A stretch of DNA of 59,595 nt, taken from positions 1 through 59,595 of the forward strand of contig JAFTIH010000014.1 of assembly GCA_017456985.1 (NCBI GenBank), given 5' to 3'. Numbering within the stretch: the first letter of the stretch is position 1; every line of letters starts with the position of its first letter. Made by a program: the position numbers and the translations under genes. A model generated the notes under the pieces. The model made no database searches. It saw only the letters and a program-made list of their open reading frames with translations, and had not been told where the DNA came from. The DNA comes from Clostridia bacterium (GTDB lineage: Bacteria > Bacillota > Clostridia > Oscillospirales > CAG-272). Shown here piece by piece: positions 5,859-55,615 of the stretch.

Positions 5859-7076
5859 ATGGTAAAAATGATTGAAGGCGGCGTTTGCGCCGCACAGGGC
5901 TTTACGGCGTCGGGCGTGCATTGCGGTATTCGCAAAAATCGCACCAAAAAGGATATTGCGCTGATCTTCAGCGAGGTCCGCGCGACGGCGGCGGCTGTTT
6001 ATACGCAGAACCTCGTGAAGGGTGCGCCCCTGACGGTCACCAAAAACCACATCGCGGACGGCTACGCGCAGGCGATCCTTTGCAACAGCGGCAACGCCAA
6101 CACCTGCAACGCGGACGGGATCCTCGTCGCAGAGCAGATGAGCGCGCTCGCGGCGGATGCGCTGGGCATCGCCGCCGCCGACGTGGTCGTGGCTTCCACG
6201 GGTGTCATCGGTCAGCCCCTTTCCTTGGAGCCGATTGCCGAGGGCGTTCCGCTTCTCGTGAAGGGGCTTTCCAAGGCGGGCGGCACGGACGCCGCCGAGG
6301 GCATTATGACGACCGACACCGTCAAAAAGGAGATCGCCGTGGAGTTTACCGTGGGCGGCAAGGTTTGCCGTCTTGGCGGTATTGCGAAGGGAAGCGGTAT
6401 GATCCATCCCAATATGGCGACGATGCTCGTCTTTTTGACGACGGACGCCGCGATCTCGCCCGAGATGCTCAAAAAGGCGCTCTCCACCGACGTCAAGAAG
6501 ACCTTCAATATGCTCAGCATCGACGGTGACACCTCTACCAACGATATGACCGTTCTGCTTGCCAACGGTATGGCAGGCAACGACCCCATCACCGCCGAGG
6601 GCGAGGACTTCGCCGCCTTTATGACGGCGCTCAACACCGTGACGGTGGCGCTTTGCCGCACGCTTGCGGGCGACGGCGAGGGTGCGACCAAGCTGCTCGA
6701 ATGCGTCGTGACGGGTGCAAAATGCGAGGAGTGCGCAAAGACGGTTGCCAAGAGCGTGATCTGCTCCAGCCTTTTCAAGGCGGCAATGTTCGGCGCGGAT
6801 GCCAACTGGGGCAGAGTGCTTTGTGCCATCGGTTACAGCGGCGCCCCCGTGGACGTGACGCGCGTGGACGTGTCCTTCCGCTCCGCGGCAGGTGAGATCG
6901 CCGTTTGCAAGAGAGGCGCGGGCATTCCCTTCTCGGAGGAGAAGGCGAAGGAGATCCTGCTTGAAAAGGAGATCGAGGTGCTCGTTTCTCTTGGCGATGG
7001 CGCTTTTGGCGCGACTGCCTACGGGTGTGACTTGACCTACGATTACGTCAAGATCAACGGCGACTACCGCACTTAA
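5859..7076 (+). CDS. argJ: Glutamate N-acetyltransferase / amino-acid acetyltransferase
   Basis: ArgJ moves the acetyl group from N-acetylornithine to glutamate and so recycles the acetyl group of the pathway. Some family members also use acetyl-CoA. The protein is synthesised as one chain that cleaves itself before a conserved threonine, here Thr188 in NMATMLVFLT. ATG at 5859 is preferred over an in-frame ATG at 5847: GGATGGAG lies 6-7 bases upstream of 5859, while 5847 overlaps that site. Length is 405 aa. The C-terminal GADANWGRVLCAIGYSG region is typical of the family. Confidence 0.95.
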   Translation: MVKMIEGGVCAAQGFTASGVHCGIRKNRTKKDIALIFSEVRATAAAVYTQNLVKGAPLTVTKNHIADGYAQAILCNSGNANTCNADGILVAEQMSALAADALGIAAADVVVASTGVIGQPLSLEPIAEGVPLLVKGLSKAGGTDAAEGIMTTDTVKKEIAVEFTVGGKVCRLGGIAKGSGMIHPNMATMLVFLTTDAAISPEMLKKALSTDVKKTFNMLSIDGDTSTNDMTVLLANGMAGNDPITAEGEDFAAFMTALNTVTVALCRTLAGDGEGATKLLECVVTGAKCEECAKTVAKSVICSSLFKAAMFGADANWGRVLCAIGYSGAPVDVTRVDVSFRSAAGEIAVCKRGAGIPFSEEKAKEILLEKEIEVLVSLGDGAFGATAYGCDLTYDYVKINGDYRT

Positions 7077-47855: not shown

Positions 47856-48263
47856 AATTCCCCCTGCCTTCGTTAACGGCTCGGGGCAGTACCAAGTACA
47901 GCTCCCTCGCCGTGTGCCTCGGCAGGAGAAATTTTCTATCAAATTCTCGCAAGAAAACGGGAGTTTTGCAAGAAAAACGCATAAAATTCCCCCTGCCTTC
48001 GTGAACGGCTCGGGGCAGTACCAAGTACAGCTCCCTCGCCGTGTGCCTCGGCAGGATAAATTTTCTATCAAATTCTCGCAAAAAACAGGACTTTGCAAGA
48101 AAAGCGCATAACCCCCTGCCTTCGTGAACGGCTCAGGGCAGTACCAAGTACAGCTCCTTCGCCGTATGCCTCGGCAGGAGAAATTTTCTATCAAATTCTC
48201 GCAAAAAAACGGGAATTTTGCAAGAAAAGCGTATAACCCCCTGCTTTCGTTAACGGCTCAGGG
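47851..48263. repeat. 127-129-bp tandem repeat after mtnN
   Basis: Copies start at 47851, 47980 and 48107, with a partial one at 48231-48263. Each begins (G)CATAA..CCCCCTGCCTTCGT, holds CAGTACCAAGTACAGCTCC and GCCTCGGCAGGA, and ends in GCAAGAAAA(A)CG. The copies differ at few positions. Minus-strand readings give a repeated peptide (SCTWYCPEP with about 42-residue period) that has no start signal or conserved frame across copies, so it is treated as non-coding. Nothing else was found in 47856-48300. Confidence 0.85.
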
Positions 48264-48303: not shown

Positions 48304-48347
48304 GGACAAAAGCTGTCCTTTCTTTTTCGTGAAGGATATCGTAGAAT
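48304..48347 (+). promoter_or_regulatory. Palindrome and -10 box upstream of the ADP-ribosylglycohydrolase gene
   Basis: GGACA (48304-48308) and TGTCC (48314-48318) form an inverted repeat with 5-bp centre, followed by TT, 21 bp and TAGAAT (48342-48347). The same arrangement, base for base in spacing, precedes the viperin gene. The palindrome plus the following T-rich stretch could also terminate leftward-entering transcription, so both roles are possible. Confidence 0.6.
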
Positions 48348-48376: not shown

Positions 48377-49198
48377 ATGCTTGGAGCAATTATTGGAGAT
48401 ATCGTGGGAAGTCGCCACGAATGGAAAAACAACAAAAGGAAGGATTTCCTTTTGTTTACGGCGGACTGTCATTTTACCGACGACAGTTTAATGACGCTTG
48501 CCATCGCGGAGGCGTTTACGTTCTTTAAGGGCGATTGGCACGATCCCGACTTTCAAGGCTACGTGATTGAGCGTATGGTGAAAATGGGGCGGGCACACTC
48601 GGAACGCCGCTTCTGGGGCGCAAGCTTCTATCGCTGGTTTATGTACAATCCCAAGCCCTACAACAGCTTTGGAAACGGGGCGGCGATGCGCGTTAGCTCA
48701 GTCGGCTGGATCGCGAAAAGCGAGGAGGACGTCAAGTATTTCTCCCGCCTCGTTACCGAGGTTTCGCACGATCATCCCGAGGCGCTCAAAGCGGCGGAGG
48801 CGGTGGCGATGGCGATCTACCTCGGGCGCACGGGCGCCCTGATGGAGGACATCCGCGCGCGGATGCTCGCGTACTATCCCGAGATCGAGAAAATGACGGT
48901 GCGCAGGATCCGCGACTATTGCAACGTCGAGGACGGCACGTTCATCACCTGCCAAAGAAGCGTCCCCGAGGCGATCGTTTGCTTTCTCGAATCGACCTCC
49001 TTTGAGGACGCCGTCCGAAACGCCGTTTCTCTCGGCGGCGACGCCGACACGCAGGGCGCGATCACGGGCTCGATGGCGGAAGCTTACTACGGCGTGCCGA
49101 TCGAGCTTGAGGATAAGGCGCTCACTTACCTGACGCCCGAGCTTGAGGGCATCTACCACGCCTTCCGCCTCGTGAAGAGCAAGCGCGCCGCGCGGTGA
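48377..49198 (+). CDS. ADP-ribosylglycohydrolase family protein
   Basis: A 273-aa DraG/ARH-type protein. The binuclear metal residues are visible: GDIVGSRHE (Asp8), FTDDSLMT (Asp35, Asp36) and SLGGDADTQGAITGSMAEAYYG near residues 217-238. Such enzymes remove ADP-ribose from proteins or nucleic acids, or hydrolyse related compounds. ATG 48377 has AAAGGAGGA upstream. It shares a promoter palindrome with the viperin gene 3 kb away, which suggests a stress or phage-defence role, but this is inference. Confidence 0.88.
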   Translation: MLGAIIGDIVGSRHEWKNNKRKDFLLFTADCHFTDDSLMTLAIAEAFTFFKGDWHDPDFQGYVIERMVKMGRAHSERRFWGASFYRWFMYNPKPYNSFGNGAAMRVSSVGWIAKSEEDVKYFSRLVTEVSHDHPEALKAAEAVAMAIYLGRTGALMEDIRARMLAYYPEIEKMTVRRIRDYCNVEDGTFITCQRSVPEAIVCFLESTSFEDAVRNAVSLGGDADTQGAITGSMAEAYYGVPIELEDKALTYLTPELEGIYHAFRLVKSKRAAR

Positions 49199-49203
49199 AA
49201 AAA

Positions 49204-49240
49204 TGAAGTTTTCGCAGGGATGCGAAAGCTTCTTTTCCGT
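49204..49240 (+). terminator. Terminator after the ADP-ribosylglycohydrolase gene
   Basis: GAAGTTTTCGCA pairs with TGCGAAAGCTTC (one G-T wobble), followed by TTTTCC. It separates this gene from the next promoter. Confidence 0.8.
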
Positions 49241-49300: not shown

Positions 49301-50113
49301 ATGTTCAGTTTTTTAAAGGACCTTGACGATCGACTTTACGAGCGGTATCGCACGCTTGAACGCAATATCAAATCCGCGAGCAATTCGTTTTACGACGCAT
49401 ATTTGGATTTACAAGAGCATTTCTTGCGCTATGTGTTGGAGAAAGAAGGGATCGAGAGCAGTGCGGGTAATTCCTCGGGCTCGATTTTGAAAAATCCCGC
49501 TTGCCGAAAGTTCTTCCTTTCTTTTGTAAACTTAGATCCTCACACGTATGAGAAAATGGCGGATTATGCGCAAAAGGTCAACGCGCACAAGCACAAAAGA
49601 GAAAAGCACGTTACCCTTGACACGGTCTTGAAATACGTTGCCGTGATCTACGACGTCACCGCCGCCTATGCAAGCTACAAGGGAATTGCTTGCACGCCGT
49701 TTGCACTTTCGGAGTATGTCGAGATGTTTGGCGTCTTCGAGAAAGAAAACGCAACACTTCGCGCCGAGCGCGACAAGCTGCGCGAGGAGCTTGCCGTTTC
49801 GGTTGAGGAAGGAAAGCTTAAAGAAACTGATATTGAAACGTTTCGGAGCCTTGCGTCGCGCGCTGCACTCGACAAGCTTTCTCTCGAGGAGCAAAACGCC
49901 GAGCTCCAAAAGCAGATCAGTACCCTTAAGGATATCAAGCTTTCTTCGATGGAGGACAAGCTCAATCGCACGATCGAAATGCTTCTTTCCTTGCAAGAGG
50001 CTGTGGTTGAAAATCGCGTCGCTTCTTATGCGGCAGGCGATGCCATTTGCGGTCGGGAAATGTTCAAGGCATACGTTGAGAAGGCAAAAGGGGATTTGAA
50101 CGATGGAAAATAA
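49301..50113 (+). CDS. Coiled-coil protein of unknown function
   Basis: A 270-aa soluble protein, start ATG 49301 after GGGGGACGAGG. Residues 1-150 are mixed helical (FSFLKDLDDRLYERYRTLERNIK; LDTVLKYVAVIYDVTAAYAS). Residues about 160-235 are a coiled coil (FEKENATLRAERDKLREEL; LSLEEQNAELQKQISTLK). It is not recognised as a known family. It overlaps the following membrane protein gene by 11 bp, so the two probably work as a pair. It lies between an ADP-ribosylglycohydrolase gene and the viperin locus, in a region of lower GC than the operons to the left. Confidence 0.75.
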   Translation: MFSFLKDLDDRLYERYRTLERNIKSASNSFYDAYLDLQEHFLRYVLEKEGIESSAGNSSGSILKNPACRKFFLSFVNLDPHTYEKMADYAQKVNAHKHKREKHVTLDTVLKYVAVIYDVTAAYASYKGIACTPFALSEYVEMFGVFEKENATLRAERDKLREELAVSVEEGKLKETDIETFRSLASRAALDKLSLEEQNAELQKQISTLKDIKLSSMEDKLNRTIEMLLSLQEAVVENRVASYAAGDAICGREMFKAYVEKAKGDLNDGK

Positions 50114-50855
50114 ATCGCTGTTTGAACAACTGGAGCAGATCAACGAAAACCAGCAAAAAATACTCGAAGCGATAAATCAAGGCGATACAGACTCTGTAAA
50201 AACAACGGTTTCTCAAAGAAACCGTGCATTCGTGCTGAAAAATTTCATTCAGCGATCCATACACGAATATATGTGGTTCGGAACGAAAGAGGGGTTCGGT
50301 AAGGATAAGAAGCTCGCACTGATTTTAATACTGTCGTCTATTGTCAGTATGATCATTTGCACGATAGTTGCCTCTGTTTCTTTCGGACTTTACAGCACCT
50401 TTACGCTGTTCGAAAATATTTGGCTCTTTCTTATGCTGTTTGTTTTGAAGTACACGTGCAAGACGAAAAAGAACTATTCCGATTTAGAGTATTCCTTTGA
50501 CAGCTTTGAGAGGTTTGTCCCCGATGCTGACGGCGTTTGGCGCTGTACGACCTATAAGAAAAAATACGTATGGTTTTTCGTTTTGGCGTGCATTGCGTTT
50601 TTGTCGAACGTAATTTTTGCCTGGTTGGATGATCATAGTACACCTTTGCTGGTCACGATTTTGGAGCTTGGAACGTTGGCTCTCAATCTATTTACCGTTT
50701 ATAAAGTGACGGATTTTTTTGCAGGATATGGTCCGATTAGATTTAGCGGTATGAATGAAGAGGGCACGGCAAGAGTGGTTTTGATATTTGACACGGCAAT
50801 AAATAAGCTTTATACCGAGGAAGATTATTTGGAAACTTTTCCTTTTATGAAGTAA
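50103..50855 (+). CDS. Four-helix membrane protein of unknown function
   Basis: A 250-aa protein with a polar N-terminus that includes a short coiled coil (SLFEQLEQINENQQKILEAI), then two membrane segments (about 75-95 and 100-117), a cytoplasmic stretch, and two more (around 160-177 and 183-203). The C-terminus is soluble. It is not recognised. The coiled-coil tail could bind the partner encoded just upstream (11-bp overlap). A sensor-effector pair is possible but not shown. Confidence 0.72.
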   Translation: MENKSLFEQLEQINENQQKILEAINQGDTDSVKTTVSQRNRAFVLKNFIQRSIHEYMWFGTKEGFGKDKKLALILILSSIVSMIICTIVASVSFGLYSTFTLFENIWLFLMLFVLKYTCKTKKNYSDLEYSFDSFERFVPDADGVWRCTTYKKKYVWFFVLACIAFLSNVIFAWLDDHSTPLLVTILELGTLALNLFTVYKVTDFFAGYGPIRFSGMNEEGTARVVLIFDTAINKLYTEEDYLETFPFMK

Positions 50856-50874
50856 TCCGAGGTGCGAAAAACAC

Positions 50875-50901
50875 AAGGGGCGAATTTCGCCCCTTTTTCT
50901 A
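50875..50901 (+). terminator. Terminator after the membrane protein gene
   Basis: AAGGGGCG (50875-50882) pairs with CGCCCCTT (50888-50895), then TTTCT. Confidence 0.8.
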
Positions 50902-50945
50902 TTACAAAAAAGATGATCGAAAGAGATAGGAAAGCGAATCGGCAA

Positions 50946-51010
50946 GCATAGCACGCTATGCGCTTTTTTGCGGGAGCCTTGCTTCCGCTTCAAAGTCCTT
51001 GACTTTGTGA
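50946..51010. repeat. Small stem-loop cluster upstream of the viperin locus
   Basis: Three hairpins stand in a row: GCATAG/CTATGC (50946-50961), GCGGGAG/CTTCCGC with central CCTTG, and CAAAGT/ACTTTG with central CCTTG. They resemble the stem-loop arrays at 30641 and 38907. The -35 box of the next promoter lies inside the last hairpin. Confidence 0.5.
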
Positions 51011-51027
51011 CAGATATATGATATACT
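50999..51027 (+). promoter_or_regulatory. Promoter of the HTH gene before the viperin
   Basis: TTGACT (50999-51004) and TATACT (51022-51027), 17-bp spacer. The sequence ACAGATATATGATATACTGT across the -10 is an imperfect inverted repeat and could be an autoregulatory site. Confidence 0.75.
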
Positions 51028-51088
51028 GTTAGCGTTTCATAGGCGACTCCGGAGCATTGCGTAAGCTGAGCAAAGGAGGTATTTGCTC

Positions 51089-51310
51089 ATGAAACAAACG
51101 AATATGGATCTCAACAAAATCGTTGGGATCAACTTAAAACGTGCGATCAAGGAATCCAAGTGGAGAACGCAAGAGCGATTCTCCGAGGCGTTTGGCGCAG
51201 AGGTCAGAACCGTCGGAAGATGGTGCAACCAGGGCGTTGATAAGCTCTCCTTGATTCAGCAGATCGCTGATTTCCTTGAGATCGACGTTTTGGCACTCCT
51301 CTCTCTGTGA
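51089..51310 (+). CDS. Small helix-turn-helix protein next to the viperin
   Basis: A 73-aa protein with a single XRE/Cro-like helix-turn-helix (LNKIVGINLKRAIKESKWRTQERFSEAFGAEVRTVGRWCNQGVDKLSLIQQIADFLEI). ATG 51089 follows AAAGGAGG with 8-base spacing; TTG 51083 is too close. It has its own promoter and a terminator that overlaps its stop codon. It is the most local candidate to bind the GGACA-N5-TGTCC palindromes upstream of the viperin and ADP-ribosylglycohydrolase genes. That link is inferred. Confidence 0.8.
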   Translation: MKQTNMDLNKIVGINLKRAIKESKWRTQERFSEAFGAEVRTVGRWCNQGVDKLSLIQQIADFLEIDVLALLSL

Positions 51311-51324
51311 GAGGGGTGCTTTTT
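51293..51324 (+). terminator. Terminator after the small HTH gene
   Basis: GCACTCCTCTC pairs with GAGAGGGGTGC (one wobble), then CTTTTTAT. The hairpin begins inside the last codons of the gene. Confidence 0.8.
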
Positions 51325-51334
51325 ATATAGAAAC

Positions 51335-51378
51335 GGACATTTTCTGTCCTTCCCGGGCAAGCAGAATTTTGTTATACT
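51335..51378 (+). promoter_or_regulatory. Palindrome and extended -10 promoter of the viperin operon
   Basis: GGACA (51335-51339) and TGTCC (51345-51349) form an inverted repeat centred near -43, followed by TT, 21 bp and TATACT (51373-51378). The -10 is extended (TGT-TATACT) and there is no good -35, which fits activation by a protein bound at the palindrome. The identical layout occurs at 48304-48347. Confidence 0.7.
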
Positions 51379-51411
51379 GTAATCACAAAAAACAAAAGGA
51401 GATTGCAACCG

Positions 51412-52263
51412 ATGAAAAAACCGAACGTTATCAACTTTCATATCACAGACGCGTGCAATTATAGCTGCCGTTATTGCTTCGCAAACTTTAAGATGCAGGA
51501 TCTTCCGCTTGCCGATGCCAAGCGAGTGGTGGATAGCATCGTCACCTATTTTCGGGAAAACGGAATTGCGGACGGCAGAATTAACATTGCCGGTGGCGAG
51601 CCGCTACTCTACCGCCGATTGGATGCGGTCATTGATTACATCGTAGAGAAGGGGGTCAAGGTTTCCATTATTACGAACGGCTCACGGCTTACCGAGGAAA
51701 GGATCGCCGCTTGGTCCGACAAGGTTTCGATGATCGGCATCAGCGTGGACGCGATCACGCCTGCGGCGGAGGTGCGCATCGGAAGATGCGACGGGTGCGA
51801 GCAGGTCAACACCGTCGAGCATCTTACAAAAATGGCAAGTGCCATTCGCAAAGCGGGCATCAGGCTGAAAATCAACACGGTCGTTTCCAAAATAAATCTT
51901 GACGAGGATATGCTATCGCTTTATCGCGCGGTAAAGCCCGACAGATTAAAGCTGATTTACCTTCACGTGGTGCGTTATGCAAACGAATGGCCCGATACGA
52001 TGGACCTGATTCCGACCCTTGGAGAGTACCATGCGTTTATCGAAAAAAACCGATATGAGGACGAGTGTGAGCTTGTGTGCGAGGGACCGACGGATATGGA
52101 AAACTCGTATTTTATGATCAATCCGCACGGAGAGGTTTACATCAACTGCTTGGGCATCGAAAAGAAATACGGCAATTGCATCTACGAGCCGCTTTCTCAG
52201 ATCTTTGAGAGGCTTCCGTTTGATGCTAAGAAGTTTTCCCTGCGTTATGAAGAGGAGGTTTAA
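51412..52263 (+). CDS. Prokaryotic viperin-like radical SAM enzyme
   Basis: A 283-aa radical SAM protein that follows the viperin pattern from end to end. It has the 4Fe-4S cysteines 15, 19 and 22 in DACNYSCRYCF, GGEP at 61-64, SVD (111-113) with VRIGR, LKINTVVSKINLDEDM (152-167, compare FKINSVINRFNVEEDM of human viperin), and the C-terminal stretch ENSYFMINPHGEVYINC (230-246) followed by LPFDAKKFSLR. Viperins turn a nucleoside triphosphate into its 3'-deoxy-3',4'-didehydro form, a chain terminator of phage RNA synthesis. ATG 51412 follows AAAAGGAG. Operon with the next two genes. Nucleotide specificity is unknown. Confidence 0.85.
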   Translation: MKKPNVINFHITDACNYSCRYCFANFKMQDLPLADAKRVVDSIVTYFRENGIADGRINIAGGEPLLYRRLDAVIDYIVEKGVKVSIITNGSRLTEERIAAWSDKVSMIGISVDAITPAAEVRIGRCDGCEQVNTVEHLTKMASAIRKAGIRLKINTVVSKINLDEDMLSLYRAVKPDRLKLIYLHVVRYANEWPDTMDLIPTLGEYHAFIEKNRYEDECELVCEGPTDMENSYFMINPHGEVYINCLGIEKKYGNCIYEPLSQIFERLPFDAKKFSLRYEEEV

Positions 52264-52266
52264 AAA

Positions 52267-53019
52267 ATGAGCGAAACGAAATATTACAGAGTCGGCGCAT
52301 TTTACAAAGACGAAAACAGTAAAGCGGTCATCATTCAAGTTCACGACCGCAAAGAAGCGGAGAGTTGGGTGCCAAGGGTGAAGGCAATGCTCTATCCCGG
52401 AGAGGATACGGCAGAGTTCAGAGTAAGCATTTTTGAGTTCAGGCTGCAAATCAATCTGAATAACCTAAACCATTACCGCATCACCGTTGAGCGCCCCGTG
52501 ACGCATGCCTTCAAGGATGAGTGGGAGGAGTGCAACTACCAGACCGCGCAAGCATTTGACGCGCTTGTAGAGGCAGAGGGCGAGGACGATGCCAAGGCGA
52601 AATTTATACAGGAGCATTTCGAGTTTTATGCGAACGGCAGAACACCCGAGCAATATGATATTTACGCCGACGAGGTGCCCATCGAGCAGGTAATCGAGGA
52701 GGAGCAGAGGATGCTTCGTCAACGGCTGGTCAGCAAATACGCGCTTGAGCAGTTTGGGGATATGCCCGTTAAAGAGTTCAGCCGAATAATGCGCCGCGAG
52801 GAGAAGGAGGGCGATATGTTTTACAAAGCGCTGTCGGAACATCTTCGCAGACTTCGTATGACGGAATATCTGGAGAAGCGGCTTGATACGCAAAAGCTTT
52901 CGCACGCGGAGTTCTGCAAGATCCGTGACGCGCTTTGCAAAGCAAGAATCGGCGATGCGTTCGAGAAGATCAACCGTGATGCCATAGCAAAATACGGAAA
53001 GGAAGGACAGGTCGGATGA
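52267..53019 (+). CDS. Unrecognised protein in the viperin operon
   Basis: A 250-aa soluble protein. The first ~75 residues are mixed strand and helix (YYRVGAFYKDENSKAVIIQVHDRKEAESWVPRVKAMLYP). The rest is helical and highly charged (VIEEEQRMLRQRLVSKYALEQF; RRLRMTEYLEKRLDTQKLSHAEFCKIRDAL). No known domain was recognised, and it is not a nucleotide kinase, the usual viperin companion, by any visible motif. ATG 52267 lies 3 bp after the viperin stop codon, and its stop overlaps the exonuclease ATG (ATGA). Translation of all three is probably coupled. Confidence 0.75.
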   Translation: MSETKYYRVGAFYKDENSKAVIIQVHDRKEAESWVPRVKAMLYPGEDTAEFRVSIFEFRLQINLNNLNHYRITVERPVTHAFKDEWEECNYQTAQAFDALVEAEGEDDAKAKFIQEHFEFYANGRTPEQYDIYADEVPIEQVIEEEQRMLRQRLVSKYALEQFGDMPVKEFSRIMRREEKEGDMFYKALSEHLRRLRMTEYLEKRLDTQKLSHAEFCKIRDALCKARIGDAFEKINRDAIAKYGKEGQVG

Positions 53020-54116
53020 AATACTTGTTTTTAGATATTGAATGCGCAGACGGCGGCAAGGGGACTATATGCTCCTTCGGATGCGTGATCGCCGACGAGA
53101 GCTTCAAAATCCTTCGGCGCGAGGACATCATTATCAACCCCGAGGGACGCTTTTATTTGACCGGGCGGGCAGGAAGACCCGATATTGAATTGGCGTATCC
53201 AATAGAACGCTTTCGCCTTGCGCCAAACTTCGCTTATTACTATCCGCGCATCAAGGCACTCGTTGAAAACGAGGAATATTGCGTCGTTGGGCATTCTGTT
53301 GGTGACGACGTGACGTATCTCAACAAAGCGTGTGCGCGGTATGGGCTTGTGCCACTGTGCTTTGGCTTTTTCGACACCCAGAGAATGTATCGCGAGATTT
53401 TGGGCGAGAAAAATCAGATTTCTCTTGAAAACGCGGTTCGTGCGTTGCTCCCGACGGAGCGATTCAGAGCGCACCAAAGCGTGGAGGATGCGAGGGCAAC
53501 GATGCTCGTGCTCAAGGCCTTGTTAGAAAAGAAGGGGGTGCGCTTTGAGGCTTATCGGACAAGCACCGACCGATGCACGGGCAGGGCAGTGGACGGACGT
53601 TGCGTTTGGGACTATACGCCGCCGCAGAGCGAGGGACGTCGTCATCGCGATCACGCACTGCAGTGTGAAAAAGGCGAAAACGTAATGCTCCGCGGCAGAA
53701 AAAACCATACCCTTTTTCTTCGATATTTGGACTATGGCGAGAGCATCGGAGAGAAAAGCGACAAGCTGAAGGGGATGAAGGTGTCGGTTTCGATGAATTA
53801 CGAAACCGAGCATTTCAAGGAAATGATCCTGCTTGCGGGGATGATCAAGGCGGCGGGCGGTGAGTACGTTTTGAGGGCATCGGGCGCGAATATTTTTGCG
53901 ACTGTTGACGTAAGAAACGAGGATGGAACGCCCCGCCGATGCTCACGCGGCGAATACGTGCAAAAAGAGATCGAGAGCGGTAGAGAGATCGAGCTTATCA
54001 CCCTTGATGAGCTTCTTGCGCGGCTCGGAACGAGCCGCGCGTGGCTGGAAGGCGCGCCCTTGCCCGACGTTGAGTATCTGCTTGACGAGAAGTATAAAAG
54101 GAGCGCGAGTGCGTGA
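53016..54116 (+). CDS. DEDDh 3'-5' exonuclease with C-terminal BRCT-like region
   Basis: A 366-aa protein. Residues 1-175 form a DnaQ-like exonuclease: FLDIECADG (Asp7, Glu9), GHSVGDDVTYLN and HQSVEDARATML (catalytic His and Asp). After a linker, about residues 240-355 (LKGMKVSVSMNYETEHFKEMILLAGMIKAAGGEYVLRASGANIFATVD) look like a BRCT module. Such exonucleases trim single-stranded DNA or RNA. It is the last gene of the viperin operon and could act on nucleic acids ended by the viperin product, which is inference. Confidence 0.82.
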   Translation: MKYLFLDIECADGGKGTICSFGCVIADESFKILRREDIIINPEGRFYLTGRAGRPDIELAYPIERFRLAPNFAYYYPRIKALVENEEYCVVGHSVGDDVTYLNKACARYGLVPLCFGFFDTQRMYREILGEKNQISLENAVRALLPTERFRAHQSVEDARATMLVLKALLEKKGVRFEAYRTSTDRCTGRAVDGRCVWDYTPPQSEGRRHRDHALQCEKGENVMLRGRKNHTLFLRYLDYGESIGEKSDKLKGMKVSVSMNYETEHFKEMILLAGMIKAAGGEYVLRASGANIFATVDVRNEDGTPRRCSRGEYVQKEIESGREIELITLDELLARLGTSRAWLEGAPLPDVEYLLDEKYKRSASA

Positions 54117-54124
54117 TGAAAGAA

Positions 54125-54156
54125 ACGCCCTGCCAGAAGGCAGGGCGTCGCTTTTT
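54125..54156 (+). terminator. Terminator of the viperin operon
   Basis: ACGCCCTGCC (54125-54134) pairs perfectly with GGCAGGGCGT (54139-54148), then CGCTTTTTA. Confidence 0.9.
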
Positions 54157-55615
54157 AATGGGTGATCTTGTTGCCGATAAAGGCGAGAATGGTGTCCACT
54201 GTGACGATCTCCTTATTTTGCATAAAGATATCGATCAGGGTGTCGTAATCGGACAGAAGCTTATTTAAGTCGGCAGTGCTCACGTTGCTCGTGAGGGTGA
54301 CGTTGTTTTTGTCGTTTACCTCGTCGGTCAGATCGTTATAGTATTTTTCCTGAATGAAGAACATCGGCACCTGTGCCTTTACAACCTCGTAGGCTTCGTC
54401 GGTGGCATTATATACGTAGAAGTACTGCGTGCGGAACTCGATGTCATAATGACGGGAGCCGACGAGGGGCTTTTTGGGGGTCCAAGGCGTGCTTTTGCCG
54501 TTAATGAAGAATGCGGCGGGTGTGTCGTCGTTCATCTGCTCACGGTACTTAATGCTTTGGAGTCCCGTCAGGGTGTTGAGGTCGAACCACAGCGTGTCGT
54601 AGGACAATGCGGAGAGCGTTTCTTTGACCTCGTAGCCGATCAGCTTGCCCGTATCAAGGTCGTAAAGCTCCGAAATATAACCCTTGAAGCCGACCATTCC
54701 GTCCGCTTTGTTGCCGACGGCACTGACGTAGCCGTCACGCACGTAAAAGTCTGCGGCACTGGCGATCTCAACCCCTGCTACCGTCAGATATTCGTAAATA
54801 TGACCCGTAACGTCCTCGCCGTCACGCTCGACCATAAAGAAAGCACGGCGCACGCCGAGATAGCGAATGGCAAAGGTGTAAGCGTCCTCGGTGACGGTGT
54901 AGCAAAGGGCGTTCGCGTCGCCAATTTGTACGCGCACGGTTTTTTCGTTGGTTTCTACGTCAAGCGAGAGGGCAATTTGTGCCGTCTGTCCTGCAAGCGT
55001 ATAGTCAAGAACGTAGAACAGAACATCATCCTCAAAGTAAATCGTGACCGTATAAATGCCGTTTTGGAAGGAATGGCTTGCCGTTGCGTCGGGGTTGTTA
55101 TCAAGATAGTTGTTGAACGCTACGACGGAAGAAGTCGTCAACCCTTCGATAACCTCAAGCGCACGGTAGAAAACTTGTGATTGCGCCATATTTTCAAGGA
55201 TCATATTCCATTGCTCTCCAAAGCCGCCCGCTGCAATGCTTCCCGTATTGACAAAGCCGGAATAGTCCGTTACGATCTGATTTTTCGAATTCAGATGATT
55301 GCCTTGCGGCGTCATAGATTCGGGAAGATAAGAGTAGGGGTCAAGAAGGTAGCTCTCAAGCAAGGTGGAAAGGTATGCCTTGAGCTGTATTTTTTCATTC
55401 TCGCTCATACCGCCGTCAGTGTTACCGCCGTCGGTGTTGCCGCCGTCGGTGTTACCGCCGTCAGTGTTGCCACCGTCGGTGTTGCCGCCGTCGGTGTTGC
55501 CGCCCGTTTGGCTGTTGTCGTTGCCGCCACCATTAGGCTCGGGGGATTCGTTGCAGGCGATCAGTCCGCAAAAGAGTGAGAGGATTAAAAGAATCGAAAT
55601 CAGGATTTTTTTCAT
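54155..55615 (-). CDS. Secreted lipoprotein with GGNTD repeat linker
   Basis: A 486-aa lipoprotein. The signal MKKILISILLILSLFCGLIAC ends in a lipobox cysteine (Cys21). A low-complexity spacer (about 26-69) contains six GGNTD units encoded by a 15-bp tandem repeat, which keeps the folded domain away from the membrane. The remaining ~410 residues are beta-rich and not recognised. ATG 55615 follows AGGAG. It forms an operon with the membrane protein encoded 18 bp upstream. Confidence 0.85.
   Translation of the reverse strand: MKKILISILLILSLFCGLIACNESPEPNGGGNDNSQTGGNTDGGNTDGGNTDGGNTDGGNTDGGNTDGGMSENEKIQLKAYLSTLLESYLLDPYSYLPESMTPQGNHLNSKNQIVTDYSGFVNTGSIAAGGFGEQWNMILENMAQSQVFYRALEVIEGLTTSSVVAFNNYLDNNPDATASHSFQNGIYTVTIYFEDDVLFYVLDYTLAGQTAQIALSLDVETNEKTVRVQIGDANALCYTVTEDAYTFAIRYLGVRRAFFMVERDGEDVTGHIYEYLTVAGVEIASAADFYVRDGYVSAVGNKADGMVGFKGYISELYDLDTGKLIGYEVKETLSALSYDTLWFDLNTLTGLQSIKYREQMNDDTPAAFFINGKSTPWTPKKPLVGSRHYDIEFRTQYFYVYNATDEAYEVVKAQVPMFFIQEKYYNDLTDEVNDKNNVTLTSNVSTADLNKLLSDYDTLIDIFMQNKEIVTVDTILAFIGNKITH
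55409..55503 (-). repeat. 15-bp coding tandem repeat
   Basis: Six successive 15-bp units (plus-strand form GCCGCCGTCGGTGTT with single-base variants) encode GGNTD. Units are clean in length, so the number may vary between strains by slippage or recombination without changing the frame. Confidence 0.85.

Follow-up and report, generated by a model that had tools for sequence, protein, structure and literature searches.

The question raised by this locus is what a bacterial viperin would do in an operon with an exonuclease instead of a nucleotide kinase, and how such an operon is controlled. The locus lies in a 59,595-nucleotide contig from a Clostridia bacterium (JAFTIH010000014.1, assembly GCA_017456985.1; the whole contig is referred to below as the window), where a small helix-turn-helix (HTH) gene precedes three tightly spaced genes encoding a radical S-adenosylmethionine (SAM) protein of 283 amino acids (aa), a 250-aa protein and a predicted exonuclease. 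An earlier note on this DNA had described this layout, and all of it is present, including the 3-bp gap between the first two genes of the operon and the 4-bp ATGA overlap between the second and the third. For reasons developed below we favour the view that the cassette works as an inducible module against phages and that its basis is a phage-type regulon, a reading that we infer from its genes and to which we assign a probability of about 0.55.

51089..51310, + strand: HTH regulator, 73 aa
51412..52263, + strand: viperin, prokaryotic, 283 aa (P0001)
52267..53019, + strand: 250-aa protein (P0002), family unassigned
53016..54116, + strand: DEDDh 3'-5' exonuclease (P0003), 366 aa with a BRCT-like tail, assigned by Pfam and motifs, activity predicted
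54125..54148, + strand: terminator-like hairpin 3' of the operon

The first step is to establish whether the 283-aa protein is a viperin. It has the radical SAM motif CxxxCxxC (Cys15, 19 and 22) and both of the viperin-specific segments quoted in the earlier note. It matches the NCBI prokaryotic viperin model NF038283 over its whole length at 249.5 bits (cut-off 180), the eukaryotic viperin model TIGR04278 at 102.4 bits, below the cut-off of 450, and the best MoaA model at 69 bits. Its best PADLOC match is pVip, by the model PDLC02903 for 'viperins not associated with kinases', and its best PDB match is RSAD2/viperin at 8.5e-26, with MoaA at 1.5e-8. When 398 genomes of the phylum were scanned and no more than six candidates from each were scored, 76 had a match at 1e-20 or better, and the NF038283 cut-off was passed in the window's genome only, the next-best score being 90 bits. 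The viperin alone as query found no relatives in the genome-contig collection; the viperin loci used for comparison are 80 kept out of 286 relatives from a genome scan. In a tree of 40 of 82 viperins and 12 outgroup radical SAM enzymes (MoaA proper was compared by profile and PDB scores only) the two groups split at 100/100 with the 283-aa protein among the viperins, where it pairs with the viperin of locus L062 (100/99) and then joins L063 (100/98), and where the five viperins of L064–L068 form the sister clade (91/84). In an earlier tree, from which three outgroup rows were dropped as too short, a poorly extracted outgroup row (L012_OUT) had attached beside this clade at 84/73. Profiles and tree alike place the protein with viperins and not with other radical SAM enzymes, and a MoaA or SPASM placement was rejected on the profile scores, the phylum scan and the tree.

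The residue alignment, with 74 other viperin rows (including two identical pairs) and 12 outgroup radical SAM rows, supports the same assignment. R125, K153, N155, K180, E224 and R278 are conserved in 74/74 of the other viperins and N8 and H10 in 73/74, with one gap each; none of these eight residues is the rule in the outgroup, where N155 occurs in 3/12 rows and R125 in 2/12. The identification as a true prokaryotic viperin is thus firmly supported at the level of sequence, and synthesis of 3'-deoxy-3',4'-didehydro (ddh) nucleotides and protection from phage are predicted. With pVip (NF038283, PDLC02903) the protein shares the whole-length match above cut-off, the invariant residues and the position in the tree, whereas it differs in the replacement of W179 by Leu or Ile, in having the 250-aa protein and a DEDDh exonuclease in the operon, and in the HTH gene and palindrome described below. 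W179 is kept in 70 of the 74 other rows and replaced in all eight members of the window viperin's clade, and no kinase match was found among the cassette genes. Both points could favour an altered chemistry, using another nucleotide or a non-triphosphate for a metabolic or signalling purpose and not to terminate chains; however, all eight viperin-specific residues are retained, and we consider this very unlikely. The absent kinase is not unusual, because PADLOC has a separate model for kinase-less viperins, and that model is the best match here.

We next consider whether the companions belong with the viperin. Among the 80 kept loci, tblastn over the stretch compared found them only in L062, a Clostridia metagenome-assembled genome from water deer, where the three genes occur in the same order with a 2-bp gap and a 1-bp overlap. 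The three genes therefore occur together in one further Clostridia genome, and the unit is larger than had been supposed: homology between the window and L062 by blastn runs from 49301 to 54037 in three pieces and takes in six genes, adding two open reading frames (ORFs) upstream of the HTH gene to the three-gene unit, which itself stands.

49301..50113, + strand: ORF A, 270 aa, family unassigned
50103..50855, + strand: ORF B, 250 aa, family unassigned, with hydrophobic segments by eye

Identities to L062 are 89% for the HTH protein, 73% for the viperin, 66% for the 250-aa protein, 69% for the exonuclease and 72% for ORF A, whose mechanical ORF start is at 49220 and whose conserved start is at 49301. 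In each of the six genes the differences fall mostly at third codon positions (0.18/0.14/0.58 for the viperin), as in real genes under purifying selection. Outside the block there is no blastn homology in the 16.8 kb of L062 compared, and the different flanks suggest, from sequence comparison, either that the block was transferred or that the DNA around it was rearranged. The many short, scattered tblastx fragments outside the block, among the matches listed, were taken as noise, and the block was drawn from blastn.

These data would fit the proposal of a new viperin system in which both companions serve as dedicated subunits, the 250-aa protein as adaptor and the exonuclease as nuclease: gene order and tight spacing are kept in both genomes, the third-position bias holds for all three genes, and other close viperins have other nucleases beside them. 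However, of the 80 loci L062 alone has either companion by tblastn in the stretch compared, against none of the other 79, and the 250-aa protein occurs without viperin elsewhere. Searches of Pfam and NCBIfam at E 1 gave nothing for this protein, which the earlier note had assigned to no known family; its best weak matches are to PHROG at E 0.095 and to PADLOC at E 0.011 (Csa3, 14.3 bits), and a predicted model from two sequences was too poor for a fold search (mean pLDDT 51.7, pTM 0.36). It was found in one of 59 relatives (its own genome), by profile in two of 394 genomes of the order (its own and G1182), and in no plasmid. Among 50,697 phage records, tblastn gave a single one, PV036423, with 32.8% identity at 1e-18 to its protein XTK82706.1.

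The same record, phage NatCom_17901 from human faeces with a taxonomy line of Ca. Heliusvirales, is also the single phage record matched by ORF A (47.8%, 5e-72) and by the HTH protein (45.8%, 7e-14), and the three homologues lie within 4.5 kb, adjoining a large serine recombinase at the record end (Resolvase, 119.3 bits). The recombinase suggests that the phage is temperate; Ca. Heliusviridae are described as temperate, widespread gut phages in PMC9226167. ORF B has a counterpart in the phage by position only, a gene with which it shares no BLASTP similarity. The phage collection had no match to the viperin or the exonuclease, and no match to the exonuclease was found in the plasmid or viral-contig collections either, where viral-contig scans with A1, P0005, A7, A8 and A9 likewise gave no relatives. 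The phage thus has ORF A, the HTH gene, the 250-aa gene and a palindrome promoter in common with the window, but differs in lacking a detected viperin or related exonuclease, in carrying the HTH gene on the opposite strand and in having a further palindrome before ribonucleotide reductase genes. In G1182, a genome of the same family as the window's, the first part of the 250-aa gene (75% over 48 aa) comes immediately after an HTH homologue (50%), and no viperin was found at the locus or elsewhere in that genome (best match 1.1e-4); an exonuclease relative (32%) lies distant on the same contig. ORF A was found in one of 345 genomes, its own. Because the 250-aa protein is present without viperin in both the phage and G1182, it is not viperin-specific, and on this sequence evidence it is independent of viperin and part of a phage-type regulon rather than a viperin adaptor by descent. 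The idea of new parts of a viperin defence system, which the earlier note had raised, accordingly stands only in part: the operon unit on which it was built recurs in L062, but the dedicated-subunit proposal appears unlikely; instead, the comparison indicates a phage-type regulon that holds viperin and exonuclease as cargo.

The related loci share a promoter arrangement. The palindrome GGACA-N5-TGTCC is present in all four related loci (window, L062, G1182 and PV036423), at six sites in total. Each locus has one copy between the HTH gene and its neighbour, at 51335 in the window, at 7923 in L062 (with one mismatch), at 282 in L144 and at 5956 in the phage, upstream of the viperin or the 250-aa gene. 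The second window site, at 48304, precedes an ADP-ribosylglycohydrolase gene, with ORF A and ORF B next in line, and the second phage site, at 6932, precedes a 135-aa gene together with ribonucleotide reductase and thymidylate kinase genes.

48304..48318, + strand: palindrome GGACAAAAGCTGTCC, exact, candidate operator, 23 nucleotides before the -10-like TAGAAT (48342-48347)
48377..49198, + strand: ADP-ribosylglycohydrolase gene (PF03747, 115.5 bits, cut-off 26.2)
51335..51349, + strand: palindrome GGACATTTTCTGTCC, exact, candidate operator of the viperin operon
51373..51378, + strand: -10-like TATACT, exactly 23 nucleotides past palindrome GGACATTTTCTGTCC, no good -35

At 6/6 sites a -10-like hexamer (TATACT, TAGAAT, TAAACT, GATAAT, TACAAT and TATAAT, with four to six of six matches to TATAAT) begins exactly 23 nucleotides after the palindrome, and at none is there a good -35 hexamer (one to three matches of six). 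The summed spacing score over spacings of 10–35 is 30, a value reached by 0/20,000 mononucleotide shuffles, and without L062 it is 26, again reached by 0/20,000. The window's own genome (1.8 Mb) has four exact palindromes and none of the reversed-pattern control; the two outside the cassette lie inside long ORFs and have no -10. A palindrome centred near -43 in the absence of a good -35 box suggests that the HTH protein is an activator. The protein matches PHROG 8, a transcriptional regulator, at 5.7e-7, and is 89%, 50% and 46% identical to its counterparts in L062, G1182 and the phage.

On this basis we propose that the HTH protein would bind the palindrome and activate two operons, that of the viperin and that of the ADP-ribosylglycohydrolase, ORF A and ORF B, the ADP-ribosylglycohydrolase gene being probably under the same control as the viperin operon. 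Viperin would convert a ribonucleoside triphosphate to its ddh form and so terminate phage transcripts; Viperins are known to make chain-terminating ddh-nucleotides, as PMC10865869 restates for CTP, GTP and UTP. The exonuclease may act at RNA (or DNA) 3' ends to degrade products that have stalled or been terminated, which would strengthen the block, or alternatively it may remove terminators from damaged RNA ends of the cell itself. The ADP-ribosylglycohydrolase may undo ADP-ribosylation by the phage, and the 250-aa protein would take part as a phage-shared member of the regulon. A bolder version is that the HTH activator of an entering phage switches on viperin and exonuclease directly, since the viperin operon has the same promoter switch as the phage's 250-aa gene and its ribonucleotide reductase and thymidylate kinase genes; if so, the step by which the phage raises its nucleotide supply would trigger chain-terminating nucleotides. 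We regard this tripwire as distinctly unlikely.

Several observations weigh against the inducible module as proposed. The viperin, 250-aa and exonuclease operon is known from two genomes only, and in G1182 the contig ends within the 250-aa gene, which leaves an N-terminal piece only. The ADP-ribosylglycohydrolase gene lies outside the block shared with L062 and has no counterpart in the shared block there, and L062 has no palindrome, at two mismatches or fewer, in the 260 bases around the ORF A start, in addition to the one mismatch in its candidate operator. Taken alone, the palindrome lacks specificity: the counts of exact sites against the reversed control are 6 and 1 in G004, 5 and 4 in G057, 3 and 4 in G048, and 1 and 1 in both G001 and G007. 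A site on contig C20 of G004 has the phage's own letters, yet no cassette gene or -10 is nearby. A search combining the phage's version of the operator with two -10 positions gave one viral contig (L153), in which cassette genes were not found in the 11.3 of 59 kb compared. The Pfam HTH_26 match of the regulator is under its cut-off, a repressor is possible in place of an activator, and the substrate of the exonuclease may be DNA instead of RNA. As the palindrome alone is common enough elsewhere, the claim of a switch rests on position, spacing and gene context. The palindromes in G004 C20, G000 C11 and G000 C4 were rejected as cassette sites, there being no tblastn match to the cassette and no -10, and L153 was taken as a chance match.

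The exonuclease bears on a further explanation. It passes the cut-offs of PF21762 (34.4, cut-off 27) and PF00929 (24.7, cut-off 24), and its L062 homologue passes PF21762 (38.2) with PF00929 at 22.1, under the cut-off. The DxE, D and HxxxxD motifs (D7, E9, D97/D98, H153 and D158, which we take to be the catalytic residues) are kept in both copies. The DEDDh assignment proposed before is thereby upheld, while the BRCT-like tail is supported weakly, a relative within the class (L050) matching PF00533 at E 0.017, under the cut-off, and a poor predicted model from two input sequences (mean pLDDT 38.3, pTM 0.33) giving no help. Relatives of the enzyme occur in nine of 391 genomes of the class, including its own, with the same domains (PF00929/PF21762, BRCT-like tail) and 32–44% identity over the matched parts, but they differ in gene setting, and tblastn found no viperin in the 2.7–3.9 kb compared around them. 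These other settings would agree with the explanation that viperin and exonuclease have nothing to do with each other and travel in a slot for defence genes or cargo on a phage-type element, the exonuclease being a DnaQ-like housekeeping gene that was captured and has no link to ddh-nucleotides, as would the presence of other cargo in the same stretch of the phage, such as an Abi_2-like gene between its ORF A and HTH homologues (19.5 bits, under the cut-off of 25.6). We consider this unlikely, as the tight translational spacing is kept in two genomes and nucleases recur beside the closest viperins. A possible parallel in mammals to the module that we favour is viperin paired with ISG20, an interferon-induced DEDDh exonuclease.

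The recurrence of nucleases is seen in a census of same-strand neighbours (proteins of 60 aa or more whose genes lie no further than 150 bp away, up to two on each side) in 78 of the 80 loci, L069 and L101 being left out for want of a parsed viperin gene, which gave 127 proteins in 65 clusters. In all five loci of the sister clade a gene of about 760 aa lies 5' of viperin and one of about 112 aa overlaps the viperin end by 4 bp (L064:5290-8800, L065:5674-9181, L066:5639-9184, L067:5642-9184, L068:2046-5535). The larger protein has an RNase III domain in 3/3 tested (28.9, 30.0 and 33.4, cut-off 27), with two RNase III motif blocks kept in 5/5 by eye, and the smaller one a Smr domain in the one tested (34.9, cut-off 25.7); the partners in L066 had no PADLOC model match at E 0.1. 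We regard these operons, from their sequences, as a candidate separate system and as a second nuclease pairing. L063 has an HNH-like gene by its viperin (20.4 bits, just under the cut-off of 21.4). The commonest neighbour cluster is a small family of 16 members, of which two of three tested match HicA (20.4 and 21.2 bits, under the cut-off of 27), and the second is a kinase family of 13, one tested member matching Thymidylate_kin at 50.7 bits; a ParE-like toxin (L125) and a NYN domain protein (L116) occur singly.

Viperins with HicA or RelE as neighbours have been published (mBio 2024, PMC10865869), and whether such RNases contribute to antiviral action is posed there as an open question. Those operons share with the window an RNase-type gene beside viperin but have toxin-type RNases, whereas the window has a DEDDh exonuclease and the sister clade RNase III and Smr. 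Taken with the published HicA and RelE, the RNase III and Smr pairs indicate, by plain counts, that RNA-cleaving partners recur. No DEDDh, RNase III or Smr partner of viperins was met in the portions of the literature covered, including PMC11291487 and PMC12988326, a weak negative as Bernheim 2021 and Shomar 2024 lie outside them. The variant described here joins viperin and a DEDDh exonuclease in one operon that seems to lie under a phage-type switch; a new kind of system is not thereby shown. The locus suggests how viperin defence could be wired to infection, in a compact case that combines a single regulator, a 15-bp site whose spacing is fixed, an operon of three genes and a phage with the same switch, and it bears on why RNases recur beside bacterial viperins, a question raised in PMC10865869.

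Other viperin loci have settings of their own. The viperin of Treponema saccharophilum (L036:2441-6804 and L070) is in a tight operon with genes annotated as nucleotidyltransferase, phosphoenolpyruvate/pyruvate-binding dikinase and cysteine desulfurase, and the first two genes of Sutterella L069 resemble those of this operon. At L071:4378-8183 the gene after viperin encodes an ankyrin-repeat protein of 937 aa that gives a weak, CARF-like match in PADLOC, and L123 also has an ankyrin partner. Two leptospiral viperins (L113:3877-6195 and L135:2894-5167) have an upstream protein of about 760 aa, with weak NERD/Card1-like nuclease matches under the cut-off in L113 and none in L135.

Two further features surround the HTH gene. 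The suggestion that it has its own promoter is borne out as to the gene and the presence of a promoter-like site, and not as to the number of such sites in the scanned stretch (2 found, 2.8 expected), which is not above chance; terminator-like hairpins number 13 against 3.9 expected.

50999..51027, + strand: promoter-like site of the HTH gene, TTGACT-17-TATACT with TG, 10/12 matches
51292..51320, + strand: terminator-like hairpin at the HTH-gene end, to which a similar hairpin aligns in L062 and in L144

No integrase or phage structural gene was seen beside the cassette by eye in the window's gene list, the outer flanking genes being without a profile search. Just 5' of the ADP-ribosylglycohydrolase gene, at 47860-48263, there are three 125-bp tandem repeats (82-100% alike) and a partial fourth, and a 15-bp tandem repeat lies at 55386-55520 inside a downstream lipoprotein-like gene.

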